Positions 5,815-30,787 of a DNA stretch of 32,126 bases are shown here, piece by piece. The notes beneath the pieces are model-generated. The model searched no databases. It was given only the letters and a program-made list of their open reading frames with translations, and was not told the DNA's origin. A program made the translations under genes and the position numbers. The DNA is from Nitrososphaerota archaeon. GTDB taxonomy: Archaea > Thermoproteota > Nitrososphaeria > Nitrososphaerales > Nitrosopumilaceae. The stretch's first letter is position 1. Every line of letters begins with the position of its first letter. Location of the stretch: the NCBI GenBank assembly GCA_028866895.1, contig JAGWHF010000017.1:1-32126 (forward strand), read 5' to 3'.

Positions 5815-5879
5815 TCTGCCCAATTATGCATGGGTTTTGCTATAAAATGAATTGACGAATCCCAGTTTTTGGGATTCAG
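5707..5879. repeat. Left arm of a ~175-bp inverted repeat flanking the histidine kinase gene
   Basis: Read on the minus strand, 5879 to 5707 matches 7544-7719 on the plus strand. It begins CTGAATCCCAAAA, includes the TATA box and the signal-peptide codons, and ends GAGCAGCAG. The copies are identical over long stretches. They differ at the palindrome centre, at one synonymous codon and over a 15/12-nt segment around the signal-peptide end. Confidence 0.9.
5840..5877 (-). promoter_or_regulatory. Palindromic operator and TATA box of the 5814 gene
   Basis: Minus-strand order: an inverted repeat with 8-bp arms GAATCCCA and TGGGATTC around a 5-bp centre (5857-5877), then the TATA box TTTTATAG (5847-5840). 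The palindrome sits where a regulator would act just upstream of TATA/BRE, and the same layout recurs at 7546-7583. It begins 2 bp from the histidine kinase stop codon. Confidence 0.6.
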
Positions 5880-7543: not shown

Positions 7544-7719
7544 CTGAATCCCAAAAGTTGGGATTCGTCAATTCATTTTATAGCAAAACCCATGCATAAT
7601 TGGGCAGAGTGAAGCGCAGCACAGCAGCCATAGCATCCGTTCTGTTTCTTGTCGTATTGGCAAATATCGGCTATAATTTTCCCACTGCTGCAGCATTGAC
7701 ACAGGCAGAAGAGCAGCAG
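7544..7719. repeat. Right arm of the inverted repeat flanking the histidine kinase gene
   Basis: This is the reverse-complement counterpart of 5707-5879. It is 3 bp longer because of one extra codon in the signal peptide (GYNFPTAAAL here, GHYLPAAAL in the left copy). It includes palindrome, TATA box and the first ~40 codons of the Gln-rich gene. Confidence 0.9.
7546..7583 (+). promoter_or_regulatory. Palindromic operator and TATA box of the 7609 gene
   Basis: A perfect inverted repeat, arms GAATCCCAA and TTGGGATTC around AAG (7546-7566), is followed 9 bp later by the TATA box TTTTATAG (7576-7583). Start codons lie 17-26 bp beyond. The same arrangement precedes the 5814 gene in the opposite orientation, so the two genes are likely controlled together. 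The histidine kinase between them would be a natural upstream sensor, but that is inference. Confidence 0.6.
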
Positions 7720-10605: not shown

Positions 10606-10662
10606 TTACGGTGATAAAGTACGCCACTTTTTTAAGGCAATATGGTACCGTCCATATCAAAC
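10606..10662 (+). promoter_or_regulatory. Conserved promoter of the MKTLHLAI set, copy 1
   Basis: TTACGGTG (10606-10613), TTTTTTAA (10628-10635) and a short AT-rich leader ending ATCAAAC before ATG 10663. The same order and spacing, including the run CGCCACTTTTTTAAG, is found at 26197-26254. A less exact copy is at 20682-20738. The upstream element sits where an activator would contact TFB/TBP. This alignment decides the start at 10663 rather than ATG 10642. Confidence 0.6.
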
Positions 10663-12903
10663 ATGAAAACTTTCCATCTTCCAATAATCATGCTTTTAAT
10701 GCTCATGATTCCAATCCTTGTTCATAATGCCAATGCCACGGTTCCGCAGCTCTCGTTTGGCTCGCTTGGATCAGGCCCTGGTCAACTTCATCTTCCAAGA
10801 GGCATAGCAGTTGACGATTCCGGCAACATCTACGTTGCAGACAACAGGAACCACCGGGTGGAGGTCTTTGGCCCGTCGGGAAAATATGTCTCAGAGTTTG
10901 ACAAGGGCGGAATCCCAGAGGGCATTGCAATTGACAGGTCGGGAGATATCGTGGTATTGGACAGGGCAAACATGACGGTAGAAAAGTACGGCCGGGATGG
11001 AAGGCTAGTCTCATCGTTTGGCTCTGCAGGTTCCGACCCAGGACAGCTGGGAAACGCAGAACGTGTTGCCGTGGACGCAGGGGGCAACATCTACGTTACG
11101 GACGCAAATGACGTGCAAAAATTTGACTCGGACGGTTCGCATGTATCGTACTTTTTTGCAAACAACTCAAAGAACTGCTGCATGAGTGCCATGGGAATTG
11201 CAGCAGACAGCTCAAACAACATCTACGTGGCAGACATGATGTACCACCGGATAATCAAGTTCAACTCCACAGGCTCCATCCTCTCCGTGTTCAATGCAAC
11301 ATTTTCAGAACCAAGGATTAGCAGCACCCCGCAGGACGTTGCGGTAGATTCCGACGGCAGCATCTATGTCGCAGACACGTACAACGGGCGCATTGTAAAG
11401 CTTGATTCCCAAGGCCGCCCTGTCTCCGCAATTGGGATTTCAGGCGTCCCGGTAGGGCTTGCAGTCAAGGACGGCATGGTCTACACAACGGACATTGCAA
11501 ACAACCGGGTCGAGATATATGCAACATCACAATTTGTTAACAGTTCAGGCCTTGCCATGAACAGCACGCAGCCAACAGGGGTCCCGCTAAACAAAAACTC
11601 GACTGCGCTTGAAGCCGCAATAAATCTTGCCAAAAGCTCCGCCCAGTTCCAGTCCATGGTCAAAGGCTACAACTATTCCTTTAGCAGCGACTTTGAAGAG
11701 TCGGGACCCTTGTCAAAGGGGGGGATAGGACTTACCGCACGCGGGTTTGCCTTTGAACTGTATTCCGGCCCGGTAAAACCGGGGAGTGCAGTTAAAGTGG
11801 TAGAGGTCCTGGAAGATCCGACCCTTTCAAGGATACTGAACGTCACATCATATCCGGCAGTCTATATGGGGCCTGCGATGTCTGCCGGCCCGCATACTCA
11901 TCCCGTGTCTGGCAGGCCGTCTCCCCTTGCACAGCTCAGGTCCGGCATTAGCCTAATTGACGTCACATGCAAACCCGGCTTCTATCTTGCAGTAAGAATG
12001 GATCACGAGCCCGCATGCCTCAAGCCAGCTACAATCTCCAAGTTTGCGTCAAGGGGGCTGCTTTATGGTGCAGGGCAGGACTCGGAGACCACCATATTGA
12101 TTCCGCCAGGCTCCGGGGACGGAACCTTAAACAAGACTTACAGTCCCGATAACGCAACTGTTGTAATCGGAATCAACAATACGGTCACCTGGGTAAACCA
12201 GGCAAATGCTACAAACTCGATTGTCCAAGACATGCCGGTAGTGCAAAACCTAAACACATTTGGCAGCGATCAGCTGCTGCAAGGGGACTCGTACAGATAC
12301 ACATTCACAGAACCCGGCGTCTATCATTATCATGGAATGGCACACCCGTGGCAACGGGGTACTATCAACGTAATTTCAGTCCCACTCGTGGGAACCTTGA
12401 CTTCACAGCAACCCGGCACGGCGAGTTCCTCAGGAAACCACACACTACCATCATCGTTTGAGCCATGCCAGGACCCATGGCCGCAAAAATATCCGGGAAT
12501 ACCAGTCTTGTACATGCCACAAAACTCTACGGGGAAGATATGCGTAAGGTATCACAACCTAAACGATTTCCCAGTGCATGTGGGGGTGTCAGTCTTTGAG
12601 GCAGGAAATCTCACTGAAACCGCAAATGACGCAACCACTTGGAGCGATGCGGAAAACGGGACAATAGGGCCGGGTGACTCGACTGTTGCGTATTGGGTCA
12701 AGACTGGAGGCCACAAAGGGCTGTACGGGCTGACAATATTTTGCGTGGGGATGCCCTTTGCAGTGGGATATGATGGCGAAACCCTGCAAGAAGGCCAGTT
12801 CCCGTGGCTGGGGCACGGACAGATTTACTGCCCGATGGAACCCTATGACTTTCACATTGACAGCACGACTGGAATCAGGGTAGGATACATTCAGGCGAAA
12901 TAA
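10663..12903 (+). CDS. Secreted NHL-propeller and cupredoxin-like multidomain protein
   Basis: The signal peptide MKTFHLPIIMLLMLMIPILV is a variant of the MKTLHLAI leader. It is followed by a six-bladed NHL propeller (about 25-285) with repeats such as GIAVDDSGNIYVADNRNHRV, a middle region, and a short two-Cys module (IDVTCKPGF then EPACLKP, about 430-465). Next come a cupredoxin-like domain (about 470-575: TVVIGINNTVTWVNQA, then YHYHGMAHPWQRG) and a C-terminal domain with paired Cys (EPCQDPWPQKYPG, IFCVGMPFAVG, QIYCPMEPYD). In the cupredoxin domain the usual Cys and Met copper ligands are absent, though several His remain. It is probably a cell-surface protein. Promoter and leader tie it to the two minus-strand operons at 15365-26196. 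Confidence 0.85.
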   Translation: MKTFHLPIIMLLMLMIPILVHNANATVPQLSFGSLGSGPGQLHLPRGIAVDDSGNIYVADNRNHRVEVFGPSGKYVSEFDKGGIPEGIAIDRSGDIVVLDRANMTVEKYGRDGRLVSSFGSAGSDPGQLGNAERVAVDAGGNIYVTDANDVQKFDSDGSHVSYFFANNSKNCCMSAMGIAADSSNNIYVADMMYHRIIKFNSTGSILSVFNATFSEPRISSTPQDVAVDSDGSIYVADTYNGRIVKLDSQGRPVSAIGISGVPVGLAVKDGMVYTTDIANNRVEIYATSQFVNSSGLAMNSTQPTGVPLNKNSTALEAAINLAKSSAQFQSMVKGYNYSFSSDFEESGPLSKGGIGLTARGFAFELYSGPVKPGSAVKVVEVLEDPTLSRILNVTSYPAVYMGPAMSAGPHTHPVSGRPSPLAQLRSGISLIDVTCKPGFYLAVRMDHEPACLKPATISKFASRGLLYGAGQDSETTILIPPGSGDGTLNKTYSPDNATVVIGINNTVTWVNQANATNSIVQDMPVVQNLNTFGSDQLLQGDSYRYTFTEPGVYHYHGMAHPWQRGTINVISVPLVGTLTSQQPGTASSSGNHTLPSSFEPCQDPWPQKYPGIPVLYMPQNSTGKICVRYHNLNDFPVHVGVSVFEAGNLTETANDATTWSDAENGTIGPGDSTVAYWVKTGGHKGLYGLTIFCVGMPFAVGYDGETLQEGQFPWLGHGQIYCPMEPYDFHIDSTTGIRVGYIQAK

Positions 12904-12906
12904 GAA

Positions 12907-13032
12907 ATGAAAGCTCTCACTCTTGCTGTATCATTCATCATTGTTGCTACGGCTGTTAGCGGCGGAGTTGCATATGCACAAGATGAGGCAAATTCTACAA
13001 GCCAGGCTCCCAGAACACTACCGCAAGCGTGA
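12907..13032 (+). CDS. Micro-protein with signal peptide, possibly a frameshifted longer gene
   Basis: ATG 12907, 3 bp after the preceding stop, opens a 41-codon frame. It starts MKALTLAVSFIIVATAVSGG and continues VAYAQDEANSTSQAP, a textbook signal peptide with an AYA|Q-like cleavage site and only about 16 mature residues. A different frame then reads NTTASVIPEKAQETPRPLD to a TAA at 13069-13071, which looks more natural than the RTLPQA ending in frame. A one-base frameshift around 13010-13016 would give a secreted peptide of about 55 residues. Either reading is short. It may be translationally coupled to the 10663 gene. Confidence 0.4.
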   Translation: MKALTLAVSFIIVATAVSGGVAYAQDEANSTSQAPRTLPQA

Positions 13033-15364: not shown

Positions 15365-16537
15365 TCAATTCAAGGCATTAGAACCAAATACCGATATCCC
15401 GCCTTTTCCAAGATAATTCCCAGTTACATACACATTGCCATTCTCTTGGTCTACCGCAACAGACGATCCTACCCTCCCTGCCTGGAGATAGTCTGTCACA
15501 TGGTTGGTCTGCCCGTCTATAATTGCAACACGAAACGAGCCCGCTGTGCGATCTACAGGGTCTGAGCCCAGGGTGGAATAGAGCGTATTGATTTTTGGAT
15601 TCACCGCAATATCCAGCGCGTCAAGGGGTATCGTGTTTGCTACCGTATCAGTGGTACCGTTTATCACCGATATCCAGGACCGGCTCTGGTTCTGGCCCGG
15701 TGCCATGCAGCCTGAACATGAGGCATAGACCATGTTCGTTGACGGGTTTACTGCAAGCGGCGATACCGCAGGTCCGGGAATCGTCGATACGCCATGAGGC
15801 CCCCTCAGCCCTATTGTCACGTTTGCCAGGATCTTGCCGGTATATCCATCAATGACTGTGACCTGGTACGGTGCCTTGTACCCGTACTGCACATTGTCGA
15901 CATAGATCCTGCCAGTCTCGGGGTCTACGCCAATACCGTACGAGCCCCCGTCAAGCCCTGTAATGGCATTTACAACCTTGTCTGTCCTGCCATCAATTAC
16001 GGTAACGCCGCCATCCCCGTAATTCCAGTCGCTTACATAGATACGGTCAGTCCTCGGGTTTACTGCCACCTGGACAGGCCAGATCTTGTATGTTTTTCCT
16101 CCTTGCATGGCGTTAAATATCATCTCGGGAGGTTTCTTTCCCATCTCGGCCAGGCTGATCTCTTTTACTATCGTGTCATTTGTGCCGTCTATTACATCGA
16201 CTGCACTATCGGCACGAGGACGGGGATAGCTGCCTATTACTGCATAGATCTTGTCTGTAACGGGATTTACCGCAATGTCCTGTGGTATGCCGCCCATTGG
16301 AATCATGCCAAGTGTCCTGCCTGTGCGGGCGTCAAGGACATTGACAAAGCCGAGGTCGTTGCACACGTATTCCTTGCCCGTTACTTGGTTGACTGCAATC
16401 CCGCCGAAATCATAGTGCTGGGGAGAGGCAATTCTGAAGCGTTCTGCGGGATGGGGAGTTGAGAGGATGACTATCCCAAGGGATGCCACGGCCCCGATGC
16501 CGATCACGGTAATTATTGCAAGGTGCAGCGTTTTCAT
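15365..16537 (-). CDS. Secreted YVTN/YncE-type beta-propeller protein (operon B, gene 4)
   Basis: The 390-aa product starts MKTLHLAIITVIGIGAVASL and has a propeller over about 40-390. Blades repeat AVNPxTxxIYV and VIDGxTDxVV, for example IAVNPVTDKIYAVIGS and AVNPRTDRIYVSDWN, as in YVTN-repeat surface proteins. By family it is a structural or binding propeller; no catalytic residue can be assigned. It is the last gene of operon B, 9 bp after the 17878 gene, with GGCGGA before ATG as a weak ribosome binding site. No C-terminal anchor is seen, so it may be tethered by an uncleaved leader helix or released. Confidence 0.88.
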   Translation of the reverse strand: MKTLHLAIITVIGIGAVASLGIVILSTPHPAERFRIASPQHYDFGGIAVNQVTGKEYVCNDLGFVNVLDARTGRTLGMIPMGGIPQDIAVNPVTDKIYAVIGSYPRPRADSAVDVIDGTNDTIVKEISLAEMGKKPPEMIFNAMQGGKTYKIWPVQVAVNPRTDRIYVSDWNYGDGGVTVIDGRTDKVVNAITGLDGGSYGIGVDPETGRIYVDNVQYGYKAPYQVTVIDGYTGKILANVTIGLRGPHGVSTIPGPAVSPLAVNPSTNMVYASCSGCMAPGQNQSRSWISVINGTTDTVANTIPLDALDIAVNPKINTLYSTLGSDPVDRTAGSFRVAIIDGQTNHVTDYLQAGRVGSSVAVDQENGNVYVTGNYLGKGGISVFGSNALN

Positions 16538-16546
16538 TTTTCCGCC

Positions 16547-17878
16547 TCAAGATCCATACGGCACAAACTTGGTCCCGATCCCAATTGTGGCTACAATGTG
16601 ATATTGAACTCCAGAGCTTGGGCAGTGGTATACTGCAAGAAAGTCTTGAATATCAGACTGGTAATGTATTTTGGAATTGAACCCCTCTACATATATCGGT
16701 ATGAACCTGCAGGGTGCAACCTTCAGCCAGTACATGCCGCTTGTGTTTTTTGCAACTAGATTGTATGTGATGATACGAGTTTCATCGTGTGGTATCGTAA
16801 TCGGGGTTTCGTCTAAGATCAATTGTGACGAATCAAGCTGGTTTTTTGTGAACCCATCATACAGTTTTGGATACAGTACAAGATCCGTTTCAGGTGACGT
16901 GTTCGCAAATTTTACAAGTATCTGGCCGCTTGAATGCGGCTTGATAACAAAGACAACGTTTTGTGGAAATGGCCCTCCACTCCATCCCCTCAGGTATAGA
17001 GGACCCACGTCTTGGGGCAATACACATGCCGGCGAGCCGTCCTCTGCCTTGAAAACCAGTTGAAGCCCTTGCTGGCATCGGACATGGCGGGGGTCTATCC
17101 CATACCTTGTCTGGCTCAATGGTGAAAGGGCGGGTTGGTTTGAATTCGCGGCAGGGGCAGGAGCGGCAAGACTCCAGGACGTGCCGTTGAGGGCCCAGAT
17201 CCGAGAGTCGTGAAAGTCGTCTGTCAGCTGCGGGGTCTTGACTAGAAAGTGGCTTCCTTGGTAGTCGTACTGTACCTGCAAAGTTACGTTGTCTGACGGT
17301 GCAAACTGGCCTGCAACGGTACATCTCTCATGCGGGAGGAGTGTCAGGGAAAAATTGTCAAAGTTGTGCTCTTGAAAACCCTTGGAGTACCAATCCAGGC
17401 TAAAGTTTGCCACACTTGCTGGCGCAGGGTGCGGGTTGTACAGGACAAACCACTGGGTTCCCCTTGAAAACTTTTCAATGACAGGTGACCCGTCGGGCAG
17501 GAACTCCGAGTAGAACGGGCATGCGTCAGTGAAATTGTATGTCACATGAACGGGCACGCACAGCCGCGGGTATACCATGGAATAGCCGCACTCTACCTCC
17601 TGCCTTGGTGCCACTTGCGTGCAATAATAGGGGACAAGCCTCTGGTCTGCCATGGCATTCCATTGCTGGCACGAGATGCCAGGCGATATGGACTGGTACG
17701 AGTCGTTGAGCTCCACCCGGCTTATTTCTATTGGAAGGATTTGTCTTCCGTTATTTTCTATAACATTGGTCTGACCTTGGGTGGTATTGGTTGAATCTGC
17801 CTCTAGTCCGGATACGTTATCCAAGGGAAATATGGCGTAAAGTATAATTGCAATTATTGCAAGATGTAACGTTTTCAT
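16547..17878 (-). CDS. Secreted protein with two-Cys module (operon B, gene 3)
   Basis: The 443-aa product starts MKTLHLAIIAIILYAIFPLD. A more upstream in-frame start (17986) exists, but the leader alignment and the 2-bp gap to the preceding stop point to ATG 17878. The N-terminal half has several Cys (ISCQQWNA, YYCTQVAPRQEVECGYS, PRLCVPVHV, DACPFYSE) and an Ig-like part with FVLYNPHPAPASVANFSL. Around 285-330 is the module RHVRCQQGLQLVFKAEDG followed by SPACVLP and LRGW, nearly identical to that in the 26196 gene. A C-terminal beta domain follows, ending VATIGIGTKFVPYGS. Function is unknown. Confidence 0.82.
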   Translation of the reverse strand: MKTLHLAIIAIILYAIFPLDNVSGLEADSTNTTQGQTNVIENNGRQILPIEISRVELNDSYQSISPGISCQQWNAMADQRLVPYYCTQVAPRQEVECGYSMVYPRLCVPVHVTYNFTDACPFYSEFLPDGSPVIEKFSRGTQWFVLYNPHPAPASVANFSLDWYSKGFQEHNFDNFSLTLLPHERCTVAGQFAPSDNVTLQVQYDYQGSHFLVKTPQLTDDFHDSRIWALNGTSWSLAAPAPAANSNQPALSPLSQTRYGIDPRHVRCQQGLQLVFKAEDGSPACVLPQDVGPLYLRGWSGGPFPQNVVFVIKPHSSGQILVKFANTSPETDLVLYPKLYDGFTKNQLDSSQLILDETPITIPHDETRIITYNLVAKNTSGMYWLKVAPCRFIPIYVEGFNSKIHYQSDIQDFLAVYHCPSSGVQYHIVATIGIGTKFVPYGS

Positions 17879-17880
17879 AA

Positions 17881-19332
17881 TTATGGCACTATCGTTGAAT
17901 TTCCATAATCTACCAGTGACGCATTTTTGTTTTCCGCTGTGGAAGATACAAATACCTGAATCCTTACTGTGTCTCCATACTTCCATTTCAGGTCCGTAGG
18001 CAGCGGTACCATTGCAAAGTCAGGCCTCAGAATGTCATTAATTGGGAGGGAGACTGCCAGATCATTTCCTGCAGTACAAGAATTGCCATCACAGATGTTG
18101 TAACCTTGTAGGTAGGCAGCGGTTGCAGAGTTTATCTTGAGATAAAAGGTATTTGGAGGGCATGGGCCAAGGCAGGCAGCTGGCGGATGATAAACTACAA
18201 GTGCAATTATTCCAAACGGATCGTCGCCTCTTGTGTATGCCACATGACCAGCTTGATGCAACAACAAAGGTGGTACTACCTCAAACTGCTCATAAGTAGA
18301 ATTGAGGGCATAATCGACGTGAATAGTATACGTTCCACTCTGGTTTATGGAGAACGGACCGCCTAGTGTGTTCATCCCAAATACAGTGTCATGATATCCT
18401 CTACCGGGTATGCAAGAGATCCAAGGAGTCTTGTTGCTCTGCCAGACCAAGCTGCCGTTCTGCCCAAATACAGAGACATATGGTATCTCACACGCATCAT
18501 ATCCGTATCCGTTCATCCTAAGCTCAAAGCTTATTGGTTCGCCTGCTGCGTACTTTGATTTGAGACCAGAAATTACAATATCTGCGTATTCTTGCTGGAT
18601 TGACGTGTCCACTCCTACAAGACGCAGTATTGCAAGTTCGTCAGGATTTGTGCACGGGTTGCGCTGGCCTGAGGGATAGTAGCATGTCGTGTCTGGCCTC
18701 ATTATGGCGTAATTGTCAACGCCATTAGCTGTTACCTTCTCGATATAGATATTTGAGCCAAATCGCTGTGCAGTAAAATTATGGTTGGGTGGATAATTGG
18801 GGCATGGCATCGTAAATGTAGCGCACGGTTCTGAAATGCCGCTGCTTGCATTGAGAGTGACTGTTTGGATTGCATTTTGAGCAGATTGAGGAAGTACTAC
18901 GATCCAGCCAGCCAGCCAAGGATGCGGTTCTGTGCCGTATCGAAATTCCCCTACCTTTGTAAAGGTGAAATTAAACGACTGGCCAGGAAGTAGCTGCGAA
19001 TCATGGCCAAGACGGGTCGCGTTCCAGAAGAGCGGATCGTCTTGGCTTTCAGCCACTATAGTACTTGCAGCTTCGGGGGATTCGTTTGTCCATTTGACGG
19101 TATTATTTACACCAAGAACAACCACCAAATACTGCGGTTCAAAAATTTTTCCTGAGCTTGGATCTTCAGAGCCTGCAGGAATTACGATATTAGAAACACT
19201 TGGAGGTATGTTTGTTTGGTTTGTCTGGTCTATATTGACAGGAGTTTTTTGGTTGAGCTCAAACGTTAAAACGCCAATTATTATTGCAATGGATGCGGTG
19301 CCAACAATTATTGCAAGGTGCAGCGTTTTCAT
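17881..19332 (-). CDS. Secreted cupredoxin-like protein (operon B, gene 2)
   Basis: The 483-aa product starts MKTLHLAIIVGTASIAIIIG. Residues about 45-150 look like a cupredoxin fold (VVVLGVNNTVKWTNESPEA, then QSFNFTFTKVGEFRYGTEPHP, then WLAGWIVVLP). The His of the C-terminal loop is kept, but the Cys ligand position is Thr and the Met position Leu, so a type-1 copper site is unlikely. The rest has Cys-bearing beta segments (EPCATFTMPCPNYPP, DTTCYYPSGQRNPC) and an Ig-like domain with LKSKYAAGEPISFELRMNG. The start codon overlaps the upstream stop (ATGA), so translation is coupled. It is likely cell-surface. Confidence 0.82.
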   Translation of the reverse strand: MKTLHLAIIVGTASIAIIIGVLTFELNQKTPVNIDQTNQTNIPPSVSNIVIPAGSEDPSSGKIFEPQYLVVVLGVNNTVKWTNESPEAASTIVAESQDDPLFWNATRLGHDSQLLPGQSFNFTFTKVGEFRYGTEPHPWLAGWIVVLPQSAQNAIQTVTLNASSGISEPCATFTMPCPNYPPNHNFTAQRFGSNIYIEKVTANGVDNYAIMRPDTTCYYPSGQRNPCTNPDELAILRLVGVDTSIQQEYADIVISGLKSKYAAGEPISFELRMNGYGYDACEIPYVSVFGQNGSLVWQSNKTPWISCIPGRGYHDTVFGMNTLGGPFSINQSGTYTIHVDYALNSTYEQFEVVPPLLLHQAGHVAYTRGDDPFGIIALVVYHPPAACLGPCPPNTFYLKINSATAAYLQGYNICDGNSCTAGNDLAVSLPINDILRPDFAMVPLPTDLKWKYGDTVRIQVFVSSTAENKNASLVDYGNSTIVP

Positions 19333-20681
19333 TTTCTAATTCCCATCCTGTACGACATGATACCTGATGCTATGCCAACCAACAAAACCGGAACTGCAAA
19401 TGAAAATTCAGGAACTGTCTGTAAATCCAAGTTTGAAAAAGGTATCACGGATACCGTTCCGCCGAAATTAGAAATGTATACAGTCTTTGTAGCGTTGTTA
19501 ATTGCTATAAAGGATGGATTGGGTCCTACCGGTATCGTATCTATTACAGAATTTGCCTTGCCCGAGACTACAGATAGTGTTTCTGCAACATAATTTGGCA
19601 CATAAATGACGTTATCCGACGAATCAATTGCGATATTTTGGGCTCCTATATCAACATCAATTGTTCTTACTACCTTGTCCGTTTCACCTGAAATGACTGA
19701 TAGTTTGTGATTTTGATACGAGTCAGAGGTAACGTAAATGGTATTCGTGACAGGATTGACTGCAACAAAGTTTGGAAAAGGTGCCACGGATATGGTATCA
19801 ACCAGTTTGTTTTCCTTTGCAGATACCACAGAGACGGTATTGTCGCCGTTGTTCGCAGTGTATAACATGCCAGTATTTGGGTTCAGGGCCACCTTGTCTG
19901 GATCGCGTCCGACAGATATGGTGCCTGCAAGCTGGTTTGTAGTGCCAGATATTACAACGAGTTTTCCCTCAGGTCCAGTACAGGTTACATATATTGTGTC
20001 TGTAGGCTCGTCTACGGCAAGATCTGAGGACCAGAGATTGCAAACGCTCAGAGTAGCTACAACCTTGTTTGCACTTCCATCAATTACAGATACCGTATTT
20101 GAGATCCAGTTTGCAACGTATATCATGTTGGTTCTATGGTTGATTGCAATGCTTTGTGGGTCAGAACCGACAGGTATTGTTGCCACGACGCTATTTGTAT
20201 CTCCTGATATGACCGATACTGACTGGGAATTTGCGTTGGATACGTAAACCATGTTGGTTGAGGGGTTGACGGCAAGGCGTACCGGGCTGGTTCCCACTGG
20301 TATGGTATCAACAATTTTGTTGGTTAGGCCGGATATGACAGATACCGAGTTTTCATCGATATTGGTAACATAGGCAATGTTTGTATCCGGATTTACTGCT
20401 ATCTGGCCTGTCCTTATTCCTACATGGATGTCAAGTCTTTTTGTTGAATTCAGAGTAGGCAGTGGTCCCATGGAGCCAAGAGAGCCCGTCTGAGAAGAGT
20501 TTGCACATGGAGTAGGCTGCCATCCTGTCTTGTTTGTATAAACGTAACAGCCAATCTTGTTTGGAGGCAGAGGTGCAATCTGATGAGGCAGATCCGGGGG
20601 ATTTTGTGCATATGTTACAGACGGGTGTAAAAGCAGGACAGCCGCCAGGGTTGTAATTATTGCAAGGTGCAGCGTTTTCAT
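19329..20681 (-). CDS. Secreted YVTN beta-propeller protein with PEF-type C-terminal sorting signal (operon B, gene 1)
   Basis: The 450-aa product starts MKTLHLAIITTLAAVLLLHP and is cleaved near TYAQNP. About eight blades of ~42 residues (80-420) repeat AVNPxTNxxYVxN and SVISGxTNxVVxTIPVG, the YVTN/YncE family. The C-terminus, VPEFSFAVPVLLVGI then a short helix and basic YRMGIRK, matches the PEF(G)-CTERM pattern recognised by archaeosortases, so this protein may be cleaved and re-attached to a lipid. It is the first gene of operon B, behind the conserved promoter at 20682-20738. Confidence 0.88.
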   Translation of the reverse strand: MKTLHLAIITTLAAVLLLHPSVTYAQNPPDLPHQIAPLPPNKIGCYVYTNKTGWQPTPCANSSQTGSLGSMGPLPTLNSTKRLDIHVGIRTGQIAVNPDTNIAYVTNIDENSVSVISGLTNKIVDTIPVGTSPVRLAVNPSTNMVYVSNANSQSVSVISGDTNSVVATIPVGSDPQSIAINHRTNMIYVANWISNTVSVIDGSANKVVATLSVCNLWSSDLAVDEPTDTIYVTCTGPEGKLVVISGTTNQLAGTISVGRDPDKVALNPNTGMLYTANNGDNTVSVVSAKENKLVDTISVAPFPNFVAVNPVTNTIYVTSDSYQNHKLSVISGETDKVVRTIDVDIGAQNIAIDSSDNVIYVPNYVAETLSVVSGKANSVIDTIPVGPNPSFIAINNATKTVYISNFGGTVSVIPFSNLDLQTVPEFSFAVPVLLVGIASGIMSYRMGIRK

Positions 20682-20738
20682 TTTTGATTGGTACTGGACA
20701 GGTATGGTTTAAAAAATTAGTGTAGATTTTTACCATAA
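20682..20738 (-). promoter_or_regulatory. Conserved promoter of the MKTLHLAI set, copy 2 (operon B)
   Basis: On the minus strand: TTATGGTA (20738-20731), TTTTTTAA (20716-20709), then CCATACCTGTCCAGTACC and AATCAAAA just before ATG 20681. Element spacing matches copy 1 exactly. The part downstream of TATA is shared nearly base for base with copy 3. Confidence 0.65.
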
Positions 20739-20754
20739 GATCCTTCATGTTTAA

Positions 20755-22254
20755 TCAATTGGTCGGTGTCAAGCACCATCCATTTTGCAAGAACTTTGTG
20801 ATATCAGAGTTTGATGCGTATCCTGATACGGGCCCAAGGCATCCAAGACCCACGCTTTTGACACCAGTATCATCCCGGTCAAATGTTACCTCAAGCCGCA
20901 GTGTCCTTGTTCCTTCAGTTGGCGAAGGGTAAACTTGCTTTTCTACATCAAAATATACACTGTCATAGTAGTTATGCTCAATGCTTATCACTGCGTCAGG
21001 GTGTGCTGCAAGAAACATTTTCGAATAATTCAGATCTTTTGCCACGGCGATTAGTTCTGAATCGTTATAATATCCCGGGTCTATGACCCTGATTCCTCCC
21101 ATAAGAGATGGGTTCATCTTGTCATAATAGTCATAGTATCCTGCTGAAAACGGCTCTGTGTCAAGAGTAAATCTTGCTCCGGGTAGAATTGGGCCCGAGT
21201 CAAATATCGCCGGACCATACTTGCTTGTAATGGTGTGGGTAACATTGTCTATGTTGTCCCACGATACCAGGGTCCCTCTGAGAACTGCCACCATGTCATT
21301 AGAATATCTGTGATCATCAAGGGGCGGTCTTCTAGGATGTTGTATTTGCAACCACTCAAACATCGGATCGACTGGAAGCACGGTCACGGTTCCATTCTGG
21401 CCGGAACTTGCATGGTATTCATACTTGCCGGGCCTGTCAAACCATTGAGTAAATGAGTTGCCAGGGTCAATAGATGATGGAAGCGGATTTCCAAAATGGG
21501 TTCTCTCATAGAACCCGGCATCGTCTTGGCTGTCTGAGATTATGGTATTTTGAGAGTTGTCTTCATTTGTCCACCTTATTGTCTCATTAACACCTATCTT
21601 GACAGTAATGTTTTGAGGCTCAAATGTAGCCTCATGTTTTGAGAAACCCTCAGGTATTATGACCTGTGATGCAGCTGACTCTTCCCAAAAGCTCTTGTGT
21701 AGCGTCTTGCCATTCCAGATAATGACGAGGTTGTAAGATCCCGAGTTTTTCATAGGATGTAGTTCTTCCACATCCACGGGCCAAGAAAGTTGCCGCTGTT
21801 CTACAGTGTCTGCAGGATCGCACATCATAAGAGGGCCAAAGTTTGACCACGCCAGTATGTTGTTGTCAGTTGTGAGGACAACTCTAGGATAGGAGCAGGA
21901 CAGGGATTCTCCACTAAACTTTACTGTGAAATTTATTGGCTGTCCCACTGTATAGGTATCGTTTAGGCCTTCAACTGAGAGCCCGTCTGAAGATTCGTTT
22001 GGAGGATAAAGATAAAGCAACAGTCCGCGTTCAAGCGGTGTGTTTAATTTGTTAAAATCAATGCAGAGTGGCTCTAGATTCTCATACTGGATTACAAGCT
22101 GAAGATCATTGTTACATTCTACCACCTGAGGACGAATGCCTGATTCAAACTGTTTTAGAGGAGACGGAAACTGTTCGGTTGCACTTACTATTTCAGTTGA
22201 GGATATGCTGATTAACGCGCAGATGGCAACTATTGCAAGATGTAGGGTTTTCAT
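20755..22254 (-). CDS. Secreted protein with two-Cys module and two cupredoxin-like domains (operon A, gene 4)
   Basis: The 499-aa product starts MKTLHLAIVAICALISISST at ATG 22254, which overlaps the preceding stop (TGATG) and has GGAGGT upstream. A longer frame to 22323 exists but would duplicate the upstream gene. After the leader comes a degenerate two-Cys module (PQVVECNNDLQLVIQYE, then EPLCID, near 30-55) and an Ig-like domain. Two cupredoxin-type domains follow: NITVKIGVNETIRWTNED to YEYHASSGQNGTVTV (about 190-290), and a second to YYDYYDKMNPSLMGGIRV (about 295-385). Neither keeps the Cys-His-Met ligand set. The C-terminal region has Cys near the end (GLGCLGPVSG, NGWCLTP). It is likely extracellular. 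Confidence 0.82.
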   Translation of the reverse strand: MKTLHLAIVAICALISISSTEIVSATEQFPSPLKQFESGIRPQVVECNNDLQLVIQYENLEPLCIDFNKLNTPLERGLLLYLYPPNESSDGLSVEGLNDTYTVGQPINFTVKFSGESLSCSYPRVVLTTDNNILAWSNFGPLMMCDPADTVEQRQLSWPVDVEELHPMKNSGSYNLVIIWNGKTLHKSFWEESAASQVIIPEGFSKHEATFEPQNITVKIGVNETIRWTNEDNSQNTIISDSQDDAGFYERTHFGNPLPSSIDPGNSFTQWFDRPGKYEYHASSGQNGTVTVLPVDPMFEWLQIQHPRRPPLDDHRYSNDMVAVLRGTLVSWDNIDNVTHTITSKYGPAIFDSGPILPGARFTLDTEPFSAGYYDYYDKMNPSLMGGIRVIDPGYYNDSELIAVAKDLNYSKMFLAAHPDAVISIEHNYYDSVYFDVEKQVYPSPTEGTRTLRLEVTFDRDDTGVKSVGLGCLGPVSGYASNSDITKFLQNGWCLTPTN

Positions 22255-23237
22255 CACCTGACCTCCAGCGATGTCTTCAGCGAGTTGGCAAGTGGTACTG
22301 GATATCCCGTAAAGTTGCCCCATACAAACGCTTCAACGGTATAGTTCCCTGCCTTGGAAGGGGTCCAGCTGTTAAACAGTGCGGCGCTTTGCAGTGGGTC
22401 CAGCTGCTGGTTGTGCCACTGGATGCTCTCAACTCTGCCCTGGTTGTCAAAAACCTCCGTAATATAGGAAAAATGTTGCCACTTCGGCGAGATGTTTTCC
22501 GCATCGGCCTGAATGGATATGGGTTTTCCCACCTCGAAATAATCAAACGGGGCGAATCTCCCCGAAAAAGGCCGGAAATTTTCAACCCTTATGGGAGGTG
22601 GGTGGGCAGAACCAATGATGATGGTTTTGTTCAAATCCTGTATGCCAAGTAGTAGGTCAAAGTTTGGCACGCTGTAGGGATTGCTATTGTCAAAGATATT
22701 GTTGTCGCGGTCTATTGAGAACATCTGAACACTGAGGTGGTATTCAGTTCCCGGGTCATTGAAGACTGGTGCCTGCACTACTATTGGCTCGTCATCATTG
22801 TATGGGACCCACCCGTTTAGAATAGGTTCGTGGGATGCCGTGACGTTCCAACTTGGGCTTGTAGTCGAGACAACCTTGACATTTAGGATGCCCGTATGGG
22901 TATGGAGGAGTTCACGGAAGAGCACATTGCCTTCTTGTGTTATTGTAGAAAAGAAGGAGACATGGCGTATTGTTTGGTTTGTGTTTGCATCAAAGAACCT
23001 GAACCAGAGGTAATGGGTACCGGTTGGCATCGTAGTGTTTGAGTAGAGTCGTACTGCAAGATCTAAGGTCCTGTTTCCCACTGAGGCTGAAGGGAAGGGA
23101 GCTGCTCCCGGGCAGGAAGACCCTCCCATGCATTGTTCTTTTGAGAGTTGCGCTTGCTGTTTGTCAAGTTGTAGGTATGCAGAAGAGGCAAACAGGGCCG
23201 AAGTGCAGAGAATTATCGCAAGTTGCAGTGTTTTCAT
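22254..23237 (-). CDS. Secreted Ig-like protein (operon A, gene 3)
   Basis: The 327-aa product starts MKTLQLAIILCTSALFASSA. It has a Cys pair (QCMGGSSCPG) soon after the leader and then mostly beta-sandwich sequence. The first domain (about 50-210) contains LDLAVRLYSNTTMPTGTHYLW. The second (about 230-325) has the pattern YFEVGKPISIQADAENIS to NSWTPSKAGNYTVEAFVWG, a CARDB/Ig-like form common in archaeal surface proteins. It has no transmembrane anchor beyond the leader and no enzymatic motif. It starts 2 bp after the upstream stop codon and shares one base with the next gene's start, so it is firmly within operon A. Confidence 0.78.
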   Translation of the reverse strand: MKTLQLAIILCTSALFASSAYLQLDKQQAQLSKEQCMGGSSCPGAAPFPSASVGNRTLDLAVRLYSNTTMPTGTHYLWFRFFDANTNQTIRHVSFFSTITQEGNVLFRELLHTHTGILNVKVVSTTSPSWNVTASHEPILNGWVPYNDDEPIVVQAPVFNDPGTEYHLSVQMFSIDRDNNIFDNSNPYSVPNFDLLLGIQDLNKTIIIGSAHPPPIRVENFRPFSGRFAPFDYFEVGKPISIQADAENISPKWQHFSYITEVFDNQGRVESIQWHNQQLDPLQSAALFNSWTPSKAGNYTVEAFVWGNFTGYPVPLANSLKTSLEVR

Positions 23238-23239
23238 TT

Positions 23240-23905
23240 TTATCCTGTCCTCGACGAATTTTCAACTGTAAGAACGAGGCCCGGCCCTTCGTTGCATACT
23301 CCGGGCGGAAGGAACAGCCAGTGGCTTCCTGTCTCGGCATTCCTAGTTGAAGATATGGTTGCAGTTACAAGAATTGAGCTCCAAGGCCAGAGTATCTCGA
23401 ATTTTGGCTCAAATGAGACCGTCACACCTTTGAGGGATTCTGTGTAAGTTTCTGAATACCCGCCCGGTATAGACCTGTAGTGTGAGAAACTGGCCCGGTT
23501 TGTCATGTTTATGTGCGGAAGCTTGATGGCCTCAGAAAGCGGCAGGTTGGAGTAAATCATATACGATATAGAACCGTTGTGCCCCGCCCCTAGGACGAAA
23601 TTGCCCGCACTATACCTCTTGTCAAGACAGACCTCGTCAAAACCGGAATTCCCAGCTACTTTAGTAAATGTGTGAAAACCGATTATCGGGCACATGAATC
23701 CGCCCATGGGACCGGGATCATAGTTTTGAAGTAATTTCAGTGAACATGCATGGACAGTGCTATTCTGAGGGATGGTCTCGGTCTGGATTCCTTCAAGCCC
23801 GGGATATGGATAATAGTTTTGAAAAAATACCTCGATGAGGACTAGAGTTACAATCACACTTGCAGACGCTGAACCGAATATTATCGCAAGGTGCAGTGTT
23901 TTCAT
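23240..23905 (-). CDS. Leader-anchored extracellular protein (operon A, gene 2)
   Basis: The 221-aa product starts MKTLHLAIIFGSASASVIVT followed by LVLIEVFF. This long hydrophobic segment has no good cleavage site and may stay as a membrane anchor. The outside part has Cys in HACSLKL, GFMCPIIGFH and EVCLDKRYS, and ends in a beta segment with VSFEPKFEILWPWSSILVT. I do not recognise it. The start overlaps the preceding stop (ATGA), so it is translationally coupled to the Asp-box gene. The small size and shared leader suggest a subunit of whatever the operon builds. Confidence 0.75.
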   Translation of the reverse strand: MKTLHLAIIFGSASASVIVTLVLIEVFFQNYYPYPGLEGIQTETIPQNSTVHACSLKLLQNYDPGPMGGFMCPIIGFHTFTKVAGNSGFDEVCLDKRYSAGNFVLGAGHNGSISYMIYSNLPLSEAIKLPHINMTNRASFSHYRSIPGGYSETYTESLKGVTVSFEPKFEILWPWSSILVTATISSTRNAETGSHWLFLPPGVCNEGPGLVLTVENSSRTG

Positions 23906-26196
23906 TTTCTATCTCCGTATTGTCCCGATTTTAGAACATTCAGGGTGAAGCTGCCGACATCAGGCCATGATCTGCTTGTCTCCGACGGTATGTGTGATAT
24001 TGTGATAAAGTATCTGCCAGTAGGAGTGGATGATCCGGCATACATTGTGAAATTAAAGACTGCGGGATGGGTCACCGATGATGTGTCATTGTCTGAGACC
24101 ATCTTGACATCATAATTTTCCATGCCGCATGGCAGCCTGTCGAGGTACAATTTCATGTGCGGCTCGCCAAACTCCTTGATAATGGGACTCACAGAGACCT
24201 GGAAACTGGCAGGACCAAATCCCTTTGTTACATTGACCTGTGACGGGACAATGGTAGTATCAAACTGTGCGGGAGCAAGAGGAACCGCATACAGGTAAAA
24301 CGGCAGATAGGCAGTAGCGTTTGTACCATAGTGACTAATATCACCTCCATAGGTTGTGTAAAACTGGAGAAGCGGAGGACCATGTGAGGTTCTAGTCTGG
24401 TCAAGTGCTGCAAATGCGTCAATCTGCCTTGATATCTTTTTCTCATCCCACTGGTTGAACTGGAAACATCCCTCCTGGTCGGTGCTTGCAGTTCCCATCT
24501 CGGTGCCGTTGACATAGACTGTTACCTGGCCATTTGCTATGGGGCCTGCAATGGAATCAAGATACCCCTTGAGAAAGTCCCCGTCAAGCCTCGTATACGA
24601 GCCGTATGCATCAAGCCTAATGTGCGGAATCCTTGGGTCTGCCGCAGGCATCGCCCATCCCCTCCTCATCAGTTTGTCAACGCTTGCAGGCTCGACGCAT
24701 GCAGGGGAGCCGTCCTCTGCCTTGAATACAAGTGTCAGGTATGGATTGCACGTCACATCCTTTGCAAATACGTGTATCTTTGATTGCTGCAGGGGCGGCA
24801 TTACGTGGATGAGATCCTGAGGAGAAGCCACAGTACCGTAATGGTTAAGGTTCATCATCTTTTCAAAGGTATTCCCTCCATCCCTGCTTGCAAGAAACAT
24901 AATGTCGTTTCCCGGATACCACGTGCCAAAGGCAAGGTAGACGTTCTGCCCCGAATAGGCCACCTGCGGCTCGTTAAAGTTGTACTTTATGTCTCCAGTA
25001 AGGTTTGTGATCTTGTCAAAGCTAGAGCCGTTGTCCGAGCTCTTTGTGAAAAACTCATCCCACTTGTCCCCTGTTCGGTTCATCCATGTGATGTAGGCGC
25101 CGTCCTTGTATGCAACTATATGGGAAAAGACGTGAACAATGTCTCCCGAAAGGTTTACGGGCTCTGAGAAGGTACTTCCTCCGTCAGTGGATCTCGTAAG
25201 GAAGAGCCCGGAAGGGTGGCGGTGTGCATTGTTCTCCCATGTAACGTATACGTTGTTGCCGTAAGATGCGATTCGCGCATCAATTGACTGGCCAATGGTC
25301 ATATCCTTGCTCAGGTTGATAGTGGGTGCAAATGTTAGACCGCCGTCATTGCTTCTTGCTAGATTGACAATTGTGCCGTTTTGCTCCCATTTCAGGTACA
25401 CGTTTTTCCCGGAGGTAGACATTTGAAGGCCCCAGAACTCTTGGGTCGAGTTTTCAATTATAACCTGCCTGCCAAAGGTTGCCCCTCCGTCCGTGCTCCT
25501 CTTTACAAACAGCTCATAGTTGCAATGCATGCTCTGGATTGGACAGTTGTTGCTGTCCTGCCCGTAGGCAAAGATGGTGCCGCCGTCCTGTGACAGGGCG
25601 ATGTTTGCGCCTCCGCGGGTTGCCGCATCCTCAAGCAGTACCAGCGGGTTTCCGAAGGTTGCACCGCTGTCATGGCTTGCCCTAAAGGAGAGCCCGGTCG
25701 CAGTGTTTCCACGGAGCTCGTCTATCATCAGGACATAGACGTTGCTTCCAGATGCGATTATCTGGGAAATATTAGACCTGCTGGAGGTGTTGTTGCTGAG
25801 AACTATTGGCGCAGAGAAGGTGCTTCCTCCGTCCGTGCTCCTCTCAAACATTACCCTTGACTTGCCAAGTCCATAGTCTTCCATCCATGCAAGATAGACG
25901 TTGGTGCCCACTGATGCAACAGTTGGGTTATACGAGCTTGAATTGTCCAAAGAGATTATCCTTCCAAAGGTTGCCCCTCCGTCGGTGCTCTCTCTGAAGA
26001 AAGCTGCAAACTGGCCCCCGTTGCCTCCATTCTGCTGGTATGTGACATAGACATGATTTCCTGATGCCAGGAGCTGGGTCAGTTGATACTCAACTACAAG
26101 TGCCTGGCTGGATGCGACCTGGGCAGTTGCAAGATGTAAAGGTACGATGGATGCGGCTGCAATTCCTGCAATTATGGCTAGATGCAAAATCTTCAT
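23902..26196 (-). CDS. Secreted sialidase-like (BNR/Asp-box) propeller protein (operon A, gene 1)
   Basis: The 764-aa product starts MKILHLAIIAGIAAASIVPL, cleaved near TAQ. Residues about 30-440 contain eight Asp-box motifs (RSTDGGATF, RSTDGGSTF, KSSDNGSSF, ASRDGGNTF and similar), a sialidase-type propeller. The sialidase arginine triad and nucleophile Tyr are not evident, so hydrolase activity is doubtful. Then comes the two-Cys module KDVTCNPYLTLVFKAEDG followed by SPACVEP and RRGW (about 475-515). Next is a domain with GQVTVYVNGTEMGTASTDQEG, like extracellular Ig/carrier domains, and a last beta domain. It is first in operon A, behind promoter copy 3. Confidence 0.87.
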   Translation of the reverse strand: MKILHLAIIAGIAAASIVPLHLATAQVASSQALVVEYQLTQLLASGNHVYVTYQQNGGNGGQFAAFFRESTDGGATFGRIISLDNSSSYNPTVASVGTNVYLAWMEDYGLGKSRVMFERSTDGGSTFSAPIVLSNNTSSRSNISQIIASGSNVYVLMIDELRGNTATGLSFRASHDSGATFGNPLVLLEDAATRGGANIALSQDGGTIFAYGQDSNNCPIQSMHCNYELFVKRSTDGGATFGRQVIIENSTQEFWGLQMSTSGKNVYLKWEQNGTIVNLARSNDGGLTFAPTINLSKDMTIGQSIDARIASYGNNVYVTWENNAHRHPSGLFLTRSTDGGSTFSEPVNLSGDIVHVFSHIVAYKDGAYITWMNRTGDKWDEFFTKSSDNGSSFDKITNLTGDIKYNFNEPQVAYSGQNVYLAFGTWYPGNDIMFLASRDGGNTFEKMMNLNHYGTVASPQDLIHVMPPLQQSKIHVFAKDVTCNPYLTLVFKAEDGSPACVEPASVDKLMRRGWAMPAADPRIPHIRLDAYGSYTRLDGDFLKGYLDSIAGPIANGQVTVYVNGTEMGTASTDQEGCFQFNQWDEKKISRQIDAFAALDQTRTSHGPPLLQFYTTYGGDISHYGTNATAYLPFYLYAVPLAPAQFDTTIVPSQVNVTKGFGPASFQVSVSPIIKEFGEPHMKLYLDRLPCGMENYDVKMVSDNDTSSVTHPAVFNFTMYAGSSTPTGRYFITISHIPSETSRSWPDVGSFTLNVLKSGQYGDRK

Positions 26197-26254
26197 TTTT
26201 GATTTGTACTGGACTGGTATGGCTTAAAAAAGTGGCGTAACATTTGCACCGTAA
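26197..26254 (-). promoter_or_regulatory. Conserved promoter of the MKTLHLAI set, copy 3 (operon A)
   Basis: On the minus strand: TTACGGTG (26254-26247), CGCCAC directly followed by TTTTTTAAG (TATA at 26231-26224), then CCATACCAGTCCAGTAC and AATCAAAA before ATG 26196. It shares its upstream half with copy 1 and its downstream half with copy 2. The rest of the gap to the AbiE region (26255-26421) holds no gene I can support. Confidence 0.65.
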
Positions 26255-26421: not shown

Positions 26422-27212
26422 TTATGATAATAATTCAGTTAAGGATGTCCGTAATTCTTTCATTATGGTTTCTAATGGGGGAAGCGGATCTCTGCTGAGT
26501 CTTGTCAGACCTACTTCTAAAAAGGGCTCTAACGTGGCAACAATTCCTTCTGGAAAGAATTGGTCAATGCCGTTATATGGAATCCCCTCAATCTTCATTT
26601 TTTCCAAAAAAATCTTCTTGATCTTCTCTGTGTCAAAACTCTGAGTCTTTAATAATCGCCATACGTCATAGTAATCCCGAATCTTTCTTCTCTGTATTAT
26701 GGCGCGCGTTTTTTCTGCGAGAATCTCATCCAAAGTGTAAACCTCTACGTCAAATTCCGGGTAATCATAGGCTCGTGGGACCTCTAGTCTCCCAAAACCA
26801 TACGGTTTGTTCTCCTTTGTTATTTCCATTTTCACGGTATCTTTTCCAAGAGGGCCATTGTACTGAAATTTGCTTGTAAGCCACCCTTCATTGGAATGTG
26901 GCCTTTTCTTCAGTCTGACTTCCATACCTATTTTGTTTTTGATAATTCTAGGCACTTCTGTCCTGAGAATTTCTTCTACAGCGTCTGGTCTATTTCATCA
27001 AATATTGTAAAATCCAGATCTTCTGAAAGTCGCCATCTTTCTGAGAAGAATATTTTAGAAAGGGAGCTCCCTCCTTTGAAAACAAGTTTTTTTCCTATGG
27101 TACTTTGGGAAATCCCATACAGTAGCCATCCTAATGCATAGTCCTTGGTGAGTACCATCGGATCAATTTTCTTCGCACCTGCCATTCTCATAATGTCATT
27201 TTTATTCAACAT
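26422..27212 (-). pseudogene. abiEii: AbiEii-type nucleotidyltransferase toxin, frameshifted
   Basis: The first 78 codons (from ATG 27212) carry the family's N-terminal signature: LVFKGGSSLSKIFF, then RLSEDLDFTIFDEID, the GGSS and DxD residues of the nucleotidyltransferase fold. That frame stops at 26976. The remainder (AVEEILRTEVPRIIKNKIG onward, with LDEILAEKTRAIIQRRKIRDYYDVWRL, a typical AbiEii/DUF1814 helix) is in another frame. Adding one C near 26986-26990 would read EIDPDAVEEIL and give one protein of about 260 residues, the family's usual size. So one base seems lost. AbiEii toxins transfer nucleotides to tRNA or other targets. The gene starts 1 bp after the antitoxin stop. It is either an inactivated toxin or a sequencing error. 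Confidence 0.85.
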
Positions 27213-27213
27213 G

Positions 27214-28044
27214 TCAGTGCCCTCTCCAACTCGTCAATTCTCTTTCAGTCCTGTTTATGATCAAACCAAATTTCTTGGAATATCTGACTATTCTCTTTGG
27301 TCCGCTTGGATCGAACCACATGAATCCTTTGATGTCATCAAGAACTTTCTTGTCTATGTTCGACTCGATCTCAAGCATCTCAAGTATGTACATCAGTCTT
27401 CTGATCACAACGCTGGTTTTGATTTTTTTTGAATACTTTATAACTTTTGTAAAGTCAATTTCGTCCTGTGACTCCCATATTCCTTTGATAACTTCATCAA
27501 TTCCACCACAATACTTTGGATAAATCAGGCAATCTACAACTGTCTTTTCTCTTGACGATACTCTGAACTCCTCTCCGCCTGCCTCCTCTTCCACATATCC
27601 AAAAAATCTGTCATTGGATAGTGTGATGAATTTGAATCTAAGCGAGCCATATTCTAAATTCCTTTTTCTTTTTGTTGTAACAACAAAGGTCACACTCGGG
27701 ACCTGTTCTGTCATCCCCCAATAATTCAATGCAGACCAGAACCCTATGTAGTAAGGATCGACAATTTTCGAAGCTATGACAAAAGGCATCTCAGCCCATT
27801 TGCCTTCGTATCCAGCTTTTGCAGGTATCAGGAGGTATTTTCCCCTCTCTATCTCCTCTATCCTACCCTTCTTTCTGAGCCTGTAGAGTGCAGTATTGAC
27901 CGAGTCTCTTGTAGAATTGAGAATCCTATAAGCATCCGCTGTATTGAATACGGTTTTTTCATCCTTTTCCAGAGTCAGTAACAGCCTCAATTCTGTGGGG
28001 CCAAGTCTTAAGTCGTGTGTAACCATAATGTCTTTAAGAGACAT
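27214..28044 (-). CDS. abiEi: AbiEi-type antitoxin and transcriptional repressor
   Basis: The 276-aa product is intact and first in the toxin-antitoxin operon. An N-terminal winged helix (LGPTELRLLLTLEKDEKTVFN to RILNSTRDSVNTALYRLRKKG, wing with IERGKYLLIP) is followed by the AbiEi C-terminal domain, with PYYIGFWSALNYWGMTEQVP and VSSREKTVVDCLIYPKYCGG, both typical. Characterised AbiEi proteins neutralise AbiEii and repress their own promoter by binding inverted repeats. Two such repeats are present here, one overlapping the start codons. ATG 28044 lies inside the first palindrome; ATG 28026 is an alternative that would remove six residues. Confidence 0.9.
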   Translation of the reverse strand: MSLKDIMVTHDLRLGPTELRLLLTLEKDEKTVFNTADAYRILNSTRDSVNTALYRLRKKGRIEEIERGKYLLIPAKAGYEGKWAEMPFVIASKIVDPYYIGFWSALNYWGMTEQVPSVTFVVTTKRKRNLEYGSLRFKFITLSNDRFFGYVEEEAGGEEFRVSSREKTVVDCLIYPKYCGGIDEVIKGIWESQDEIDFTKVIKYSKKIKTSVVIRRLMYILEMLEIESNIDKKVLDDIKGFMWFDPSGPKRIVRYSKKFGLIINRTERELTSWRGH

Positions 28045-29841: not shown

Positions 29842-29892
29842 TGTAGTGTGCCATAGATAATGTCACTAAAGCATGCCAGGGTTAATGTCACC
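29842..29892. repeat. Left IS end with two tandem terminal repeats
   Basis: An outer imperfect copy (29842-29867) and an inner copy TGCCAGGGTTAATGTCACC (29874-29892) are 25 bp apart. The transposase stop codon TGA lies within the inner copy. Confidence 0.75.
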
Positions 29893-30787
29893 CTTTAGAT
29901 TTTCTTTTCACTCTCCTACCAAAGTATATTTTGTCATGATATATTGATGCAGGTGTCTTCCATCCAAGCGTCTGGTTCTTCCTCCAGTAATTGTATCTCC
30001 TGTCAAATTTTCTGAGTTCTGCTCTAAAATGAGACAGTGATGAGAACCTGACCTGTGATACCAGTTCCTGCCAGAGAATGCTGTGATACCTTTCTATCTT
30101 ACCTCTTCCTCTTGGATGGTACGGCCTGCCGTAGACTGGCCTGATGTTATTTTTGGCAATCTCTTCTCTGAACTCTTTTGCTGTGAACTGTCTTCCATTG
30201 TCCAGATAGATCTGTCTTGGTACTCTTCCTTTTTTCAGCGCATGGCGTAATGCGTTGATTGATTTATTCTTGCTTTTGTTCAGGTATGCCTTGGATATTA
30301 TGCGATATCGCGAGCGGTCGTCAGTGAACCCTGTCACATACACCTTTCCCGTGCCTGAAATTCGGAACTGGAAGGTATCGCCCTGCCACATGGAATCGAC
30401 GTTTCTTTTCTGGAATCGTTTTGATGGCTGGGGTTTTGGCCTGATTCTAACCAGCATTCCGTTTGATTGAATGACCCTGTGCACTGTTCTCTAGTGGCAG
30501 GAAACATCATACTGGTACTTGATTCGTCTTGCTCGCCATGGAGGATGTCTTTGCTTAAGATGTATTATTCTTGATCTGATCCTGCTGGAAATTGAACCGG
30601 TTCCCTGCGGAGGGCCTGGTTTGTGCCGGGCCAGACCATCGATGCCGTCTGCCCTGTATTTTCTTATCCACCTTCTGACCGTCCTGATTGAGACGCCCAT
30701 TACCGATGAGATCTCTTTTGCATCCTTGGCACCTTCCACGTAAAGAAGGACTGCCATGATCTTGTCATCTTGATTATCTTTTGCCAT
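29888..30787 (-). pseudogene. IS481-like DDE transposase with in-frame amber stop
   Basis: A single 300-codon frame from ATG 30787 contains TAG at 30493-30491 (codon 99). Codons 1-98 hold an HTH region (DAKEISSVMGVSIRTVRRWI, then KYRADGIDGL) and the HPPWRARRIKYQYDVSCH segment. After the stop the same frame continues RTVHRVIQSNGM, as expected for the family. It then gives the rve catalytic core: Asp in QGDTFQF, Asp in YLDNGRQF and Glu in GRGKIERYH, the last two 35 residues apart. All three catalytic residues survive. A single substitution (for example TGG, CAG or AAG to TAG) explains the stop. Restart at GTG 30484 would make only the catalytic half. The copy is probably immobile unless helped in trans. 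Confidence 0.85.

Follow-up and report, generated by a model that had tools for sequence, protein, structure and literature searches.

The leader genes described here form a genus-specific regulon of Nitrosotalea that is driven by one promoter type, and part of it lies in the window, the stretch of 32,126 nucleotides that was analysed. Their products begin with a nearly constant signal-peptide head of nine residues, MKTLHLxII, and vary freely in the remainder of the signal peptide. Signal peptides are normally variable in sequence, whereas stabilising selection acts on the peptide of this head and additionally on its nucleotides, and the mature parts behind it are recombined from a small set of modules (WING-49, propellers and cupredoxin). 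We interpret the set as surface proteins that would be exported by Sec and whose head may serve as an early targeting tag, and we give this reading of mechanism and function a probability of about one half.

Leader genes and promoters in the window

MKTLHLAI, or a form one or two substitutions away from it, opens eight consecutive minus-strand genes (from 26196 to 15365) and the plus-strand gene at 10663; inspection of the translated starts thus confirmed the shared N-terminus that the earlier note had reported. The first four genes, all on the minus strand, begin with an exported Asp-box (BNR) protein (23902..26196; head MKILHLAII, leader codons 26170-26196) that contains a WING-49 domain (24652..24795, minus strand). 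The second gene (23240..23905; MKTLHLAII, 23879-23905) overlaps the first by ATGA and encodes an exported or anchored protein, the third (22254..23237; MKTLQLAII, 23211-23237) encodes an exported protein, and neither product matched a family. The fourth (20755..22254; MKTLHLAIV, 22228-22254) is a cupredoxin-like protein with a WING-49 domain (22024..22161, minus strand). The next four genes, also on the minus strand, all start with MKTLHLAII. They encode a YVTN beta-propeller (19329..20681; head 20655-20681) with a PEFG-like C-terminal anchor, read by eye as PEFSFAVPVLLVG...IRK, a cupredoxin-like protein (17881..19332; head 19306-19332) overlapping the propeller gene by ATGA, a WING-49 protein (16547..17878; head 17852-17878; domain 16982..17122, minus strand) and a YncE-like beta-propeller with an anchor-like N-terminus (15365..16537; head 16511-16537). 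The plus-strand gene (10663..12903; MKTFHLPII, 10663-10689) encodes an NHL propeller with WING-49 (11923..12060, plus strand) and cupredoxin domains. Just behind it, at 12907-13032, lies a 41-codon ORF (MKALTLAVSFIIVATAVSGGVAYAQ...) that encodes nothing but a signal peptide; its head is of a weak form, and the ORF may be a remnant.

Alternative start codons were no better than those given: 10663 lies 26 nt past a TATA-like box, 17878 and 22254 adjoin the stop of the preceding gene, and the ORF list's start for the third gene of the second group, 17986, falls within the preceding gene. The gaps in the eight-gene run are -4 to +9 nt, with the single exception of 73 nt between 20755 and 20681. 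A promoter-like element, TACRYYANTTTTTTAAR...GTMC, has exactly three copies in the window against 0.01 expected, upstream of 26196 (26211..26239, minus strand; TACGCCACTTTTTTAAG...GTCC), 20681 (20696..20724, minus strand) and 10663 (10620..10648, plus strand), which indicates two four-gene operons in tandem and a third transcription unit. The operons are therefore not back to back, as the earlier note had it, but follow each other on one strand, each with its promoter just upstream. Its description of the proteins as unrelated was also too strong, because four of the nine have WING-49 (NF058652) above the curated cut-off, three have cupredoxin-like domains and two have YVTN/YncE-like propellers. 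The shared promoter, WING-49 and the constraint on synonymous sites do not figure in that note.

Most genomes of the genus have the head, almost exclusively on exported proteins encoded in dense operons. Of 144 leader genes in an earlier set, 118 lay inside operons, 41 of these with stop and start overlapping in ATGA; the other 26 were first or unclassified. Most first genes are preceded at constant spacing by the element CTAGAAGAAnCCTACRCCAnTTTTTTAAACCATRnnnGTCCAGTACRTGTACAAA-ATG, in which the T6AAA box lies 26 nt from the start codon, a distance that suggests leaderless messages. The promoter was present in 7 of 10 genomes tested, with no hit in the reversed control. A second promoter form (...TTTTTTAAAgtttgaag...catatt) stands ahead of leader genes starting with TTG in other stretches of the genus, for example L164:1275, L165:436 and L167:8770.

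Several other features of the window and of related clusters were recorded. An AbiEi/AbiEii toxin-antitoxin pair (26422-28044), whose toxin ORF seems short (177 aa), lies directly upstream of the first operon, and a two-ORF insertion sequence with an rve integrase and, by eye, a helix-turn-helix protein is located at 29888-30787. A 149-nt inverted repeat (5731-5879 and 7544-7692, 92% complementary) flanks a sensor histidine kinase gene (5880-7385), and an exported protein of (QQQQQV)n and (GN)n repeats (7600-8280) is followed at 8320 by a pentapeptide-repeat protein. In other species, HerA/VirB4-like ATPases and actin-like proteins lie near some leader clusters (L092:1-1300, L132:1940-4400, L117:4442, L163:6793), a hint of integrated elements. 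The clusters themselves are not considered virus-borne, since no exact match was found in IMG/VR.

Distribution of the head and conservation of its peptide and codons

Nitrosotalea, the host genus, comprises ammonia-oxidising archaea of acid soils. The host genome (2.26 Mb) contains 16 matches to a degenerate leader pattern with two mismatches allowed, and its reversed control none. With one mismatch allowed, 27 of 37 genomes of the genus match, compared with a single weak match in 24 genomes from other genera of the order, and the reversed control was again empty. A looser pattern gave 1 to 69 matches per genome in the genus, about 69 being found in a genome of 2 Mb, and cluster size varies strongly between species. 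Among genomes sampled once per species, the degenerate pattern matched Nitrosotalea devanaterra, other named Nitrosotalea and Thaumarchaeota records; the bacterial matches, scattered and about twenty in number, were close to the chance expectation estimated for a collection of that size. A taxonomic scan with the Asp-box protein found no relative by that route.

For comparison of sequences, stretches from ten genomes were processed with a simple gene caller, giving 221 leader genes among 767. If the likeness only reflected lineage composition and the common ancestry of one expanded family, these would be ordinary signal peptides. The generic character of K2 and of the hydrophobic part is in keeping with this, as is the fact that one domain-sharing network links most bodies (115 of 132 by single linkage, genus-wide). 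It is nevertheless very improbable and already contradicted by the background, which was drawn from genome stretches only: exported background proteins of the genus match the head at no more than 3 of 7 positions, H5 and T3 are not generic features of signal peptides, and residues 10-24 of the same signal peptides show 11-13% identity in distant pairs. In background stretches of two genomes, no real leader occurred among 188 genes, 49 of them signal-peptide-like, and the one sequence flagged, LKKPILSIA, was noise. Between proteins lacking body similarity, identity was 0.59 in the leader and 0.13 in residues 10-24, the former value being inflated because leaders were picked by likeness. When loci were picked by promoter alone, the head score was still above background (p 1.4e-5), with many genes showing a weak form only; outside the main clusters, too, the head grades into weaker forms.

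The 27-nt leaders of 16537, 19332 and 20681 are exactly identical, as had been noted before. Such identity would be expected if a functionless short 5′ module had been copied repeatedly between genes by duplication, gene conversion or recombination at gene junctions, and both the strong variation of cluster size and the association of Y6 with TCC or TCT at codon 7 and of L6 with TCA (Fisher 1e-8), seen on 13 body groups and indicating some old haplotype structure, fit such copying. However, linkage between the other sites is almost nil, leaders resemble each other no better in adjacent genes than in random pairs from the same genome (p 0.36 for nucleotides, p 0.63 for codons), and the conserved tract is bounded by the start codon and codon 9 in more than 100 independent contexts. 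Synonymous sites, moreover, are saturated in the bodies but not in the leaders. Local gene conversion was rejected since a neighbour effect is absent, and we consider copying in general unlikely. Orthologue-like bodies in different species carry leaders that are barely more alike than unrelated ones; the likeness follows neither neighbourhood nor homology and is not a product of the recent duplication that, by the earlier note, would have refuted its claim.

In codons 2-9 of the nine window leaders, the pairwise difference at the first, second and third position was 0.118, 0.028 and 0.427, compared with 0.72, 0.62 and 0.72 in codons 10-25 and about 0.73-0.74 in the bodies. The low values at the first two positions indicate that the peptide is selected, and the earlier claim to this effect is supported by a head conserved across about 100 body groups, ending sharply after codon 9 and found on exported proteins only. 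The accompanying claim that the differences are mostly synonymous was correct for the window (0.43 against 0.12 and 0.03), but the third positions are far more conserved than elsewhere (about 0.73). Among paralogues at 32% body identity, identical residues used the same codon in 43% of cases in the body versus 75% in the leader. At short divergence (pairs at 70-90% body identity, 81%), leader and body change at similar rates, and the constraint is therefore soft and visible as a plateau.

Codon choice is position-specific: all genome groups share AAA2, CTT6, ATA8 and ATT9, and the low-GC species have ACT3 and CTA4 besides. That synonymous sites are constrained (CTT6, ATA8, ATT9) indicates that the nucleic acid matters too, and it counts against a pure peptide tag because such a tag does not predict it. 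The head might thus be mainly a nucleic-acid element, a start-proximal mRNA signal that encodes MKTLHL incidentally and acts in translation initiation within tightly packed, SD-poor operons or in RNA or protein binding. The codon preferences speak for such a signal, as do the mostly operon-internal position of leader genes with short gaps or ATGA overlaps and the failure of early-codon bias to explain the choice; early codons of other genes did not show the same constraint, and early-codon bias and weak mRNA structure were both rejected as insufficient sources of the conservation. On the other hand, conservation is highest at second codon positions and lowest at the wobble position, CAT/CAC usage at codon 5 is at background (as in the bodies in two of three genome groups), the wobble positions of codons 3 and 4 are nearly free in the two GC-richer species, and recoding of the leader hardly altered the predicted folding (mean z 0.34). 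Together with the distribution over exported and soluble genes described below, these points leave the mRNA signal a real but minority possibility.

Exported proteins and the putative reader of the head

In the clusters, the head was found on 146 of 175 operon-internal and 50 of 60 promoter-first exported genes (196 of 235 in total). None of 46 soluble genes behind the same promoter or within the operons carries it, many of the internal ones being housekeeping genes at cluster edges; this absence speaks against an mRNA signal. The leaders have the features of class I Sec signal peptides, a positive n-region, a hydrophobic core and an AxA-like site. By inspection, the window leaders contain neither the K/R-G motif that precedes the hydrophobic stretch in archaeal class III (prepilin) signals nor the twin arginine (RR) of Tat. 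By a crude rule, an AxA-type cleavage site is present in 147 of 202 leader proteins and 48 look like uncleaved anchors, so that the head stands on both kinds alike. WING-49 was the most frequent domain (41 of 99 leader proteins at E 0.001), followed by propellers, cupredoxins and MG2. It hardly occurs outside the genus (36 of 37 genomes within it versus 1 of 24 others), and its copy number tracks the leader count (rho 0.79). WING-49 homology was rejected as the cause of the common head, because those WING-49 proteins of the same genome that lie outside the clusters lack the head and have ordinary signal peptides.

With the head as an early targeting tag, export would proceed through the ordinary, single Sec translocon. 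Placed at the start of the hydrophobic core, the head could be recognised early by a cytosolic factor, for which we infer SRP as the default candidate, while the growing chain emerges from the ribosome, and its mRNA might be read with it. In this way all members of the regulon might be exported at the same time, with the same priority or at the same site of the membrane, after which most of the proteins would be cut by signal peptidase and about a quarter would stay anchored. It counts against the tag that no reader of it was found: across 37 genomes, the genes for SecY, type I signal peptidase and exosortase-like proteins are essentially single-copy, however many leaders a genome has. A dedicated second export machine was rejected for this reason. 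The weaker forms of the head outside the main clusters, its pace of change at short divergence and its presence on cleaved and uncleaved proteins count against the tag as well.

The one recurrent soluble neighbour of leader genes is a CDC48_N-only protein. In several species, small proteins whose only domains are CDC48 N and the second CDC48 domain are encoded by first genes or by operon partners of leader genes, and CDC48_N-only proteins correlate with the leader count (rho 0.67). In the host genome, however, only CDC48_N proteins of AAA+ size were detected; as an obligate reader, the CDC48_N-only protein was therefore rejected despite its co-operonic position elsewhere. The dedicated export or processing route proposed in the earlier note accordingly found no support in either the machinery or this neighbour. 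It is doubtful, for our part, that the head is a sorting code, the first of its kind in archaea, with a dedicated cytosolic factor (such as a CDC48_N-like double-psi-barrel protein) that reads both its peptide and its mRNA and brings the regulon to one membrane site. Stand-alone CDC48_N/CDC48_2 double-psi-barrel proteins without AAA domains are encoded at L113:4718-5500, L148:3483-4600, L150:284-1350, L153:591-1500 and other loci; in several species of Nitrosotalea, their genes share a transcript with leader genes or lie downstream of the same promoter.

Comparison with known signal-peptide systems

That a head is conserved over about a hundred types of body suggests a still undescribed step of protein export in archaea. 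As both its peptide and its codons are constrained, it also offers one system in which to test whether mRNAs encode export signals, a question of long standing. Considering its size (up to about 69 pattern matches in a genome of 2 Mb), the shared promoter and the copper-type domains, the set probably plays a major part in the way these archaea cope with an acidic environment. An earlier description of the set was not found in the open papers searched.

Within the same archaeal order, PEFG-CTERM and thaumarchaeosortase (TIGR04296) provide another sorting signal on exported proteins, and some leader proteins have this tail. It differs in being C-terminal and in occurring on a minority of leader proteins, 2 of 99 by TIGR04296 at E 0.001 and 22 of 202 with a PEFG-like tail by a crude rule.

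The YSIRK/G-S signal peptides of staphylococci and streptococci (PF04650) likewise have a conserved motif where the hydrophobic core begins, on many surface proteins with different bodies and otherwise variable Sec signal peptides. The motif steers secretion to the septum in Staphylococcus (PMC12445088), a location phenotype of which no counterpart is known for the Nitrosotalea head; the shared promoter and the operons are on the Nitrosotalea side. The two differ in sequence and domain of life, and many YSIRK proteins are anchored to the cell wall, whereas a PEFG-like anchor is present in about a tenth of the leader proteins by the crude rule. PF04650 matched none of the nine window proteins, a list of 25 families from 99 leader proteins does not contain it, and by inspection the leaders lack YSIRKxxxGxxS. 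From these likenesses we infer that the head may work like the YSIRK signal peptides without belonging to them.

Conservation of the signal peptide down to its codons, with divergence of the mature parts, is also found in conopeptides and spider hexatoxins, a pattern termed 'position-specific codon conservation' (Conticello et al. 2000, as cited in PMC4029134). Those are small venom peptides of animals, whereas the Nitrosotalea set consists of large modular surface proteins of archaea. The head resembles the conopeptide families in its codon conservation and is a member of neither the YSIRK nor the conopeptide group.
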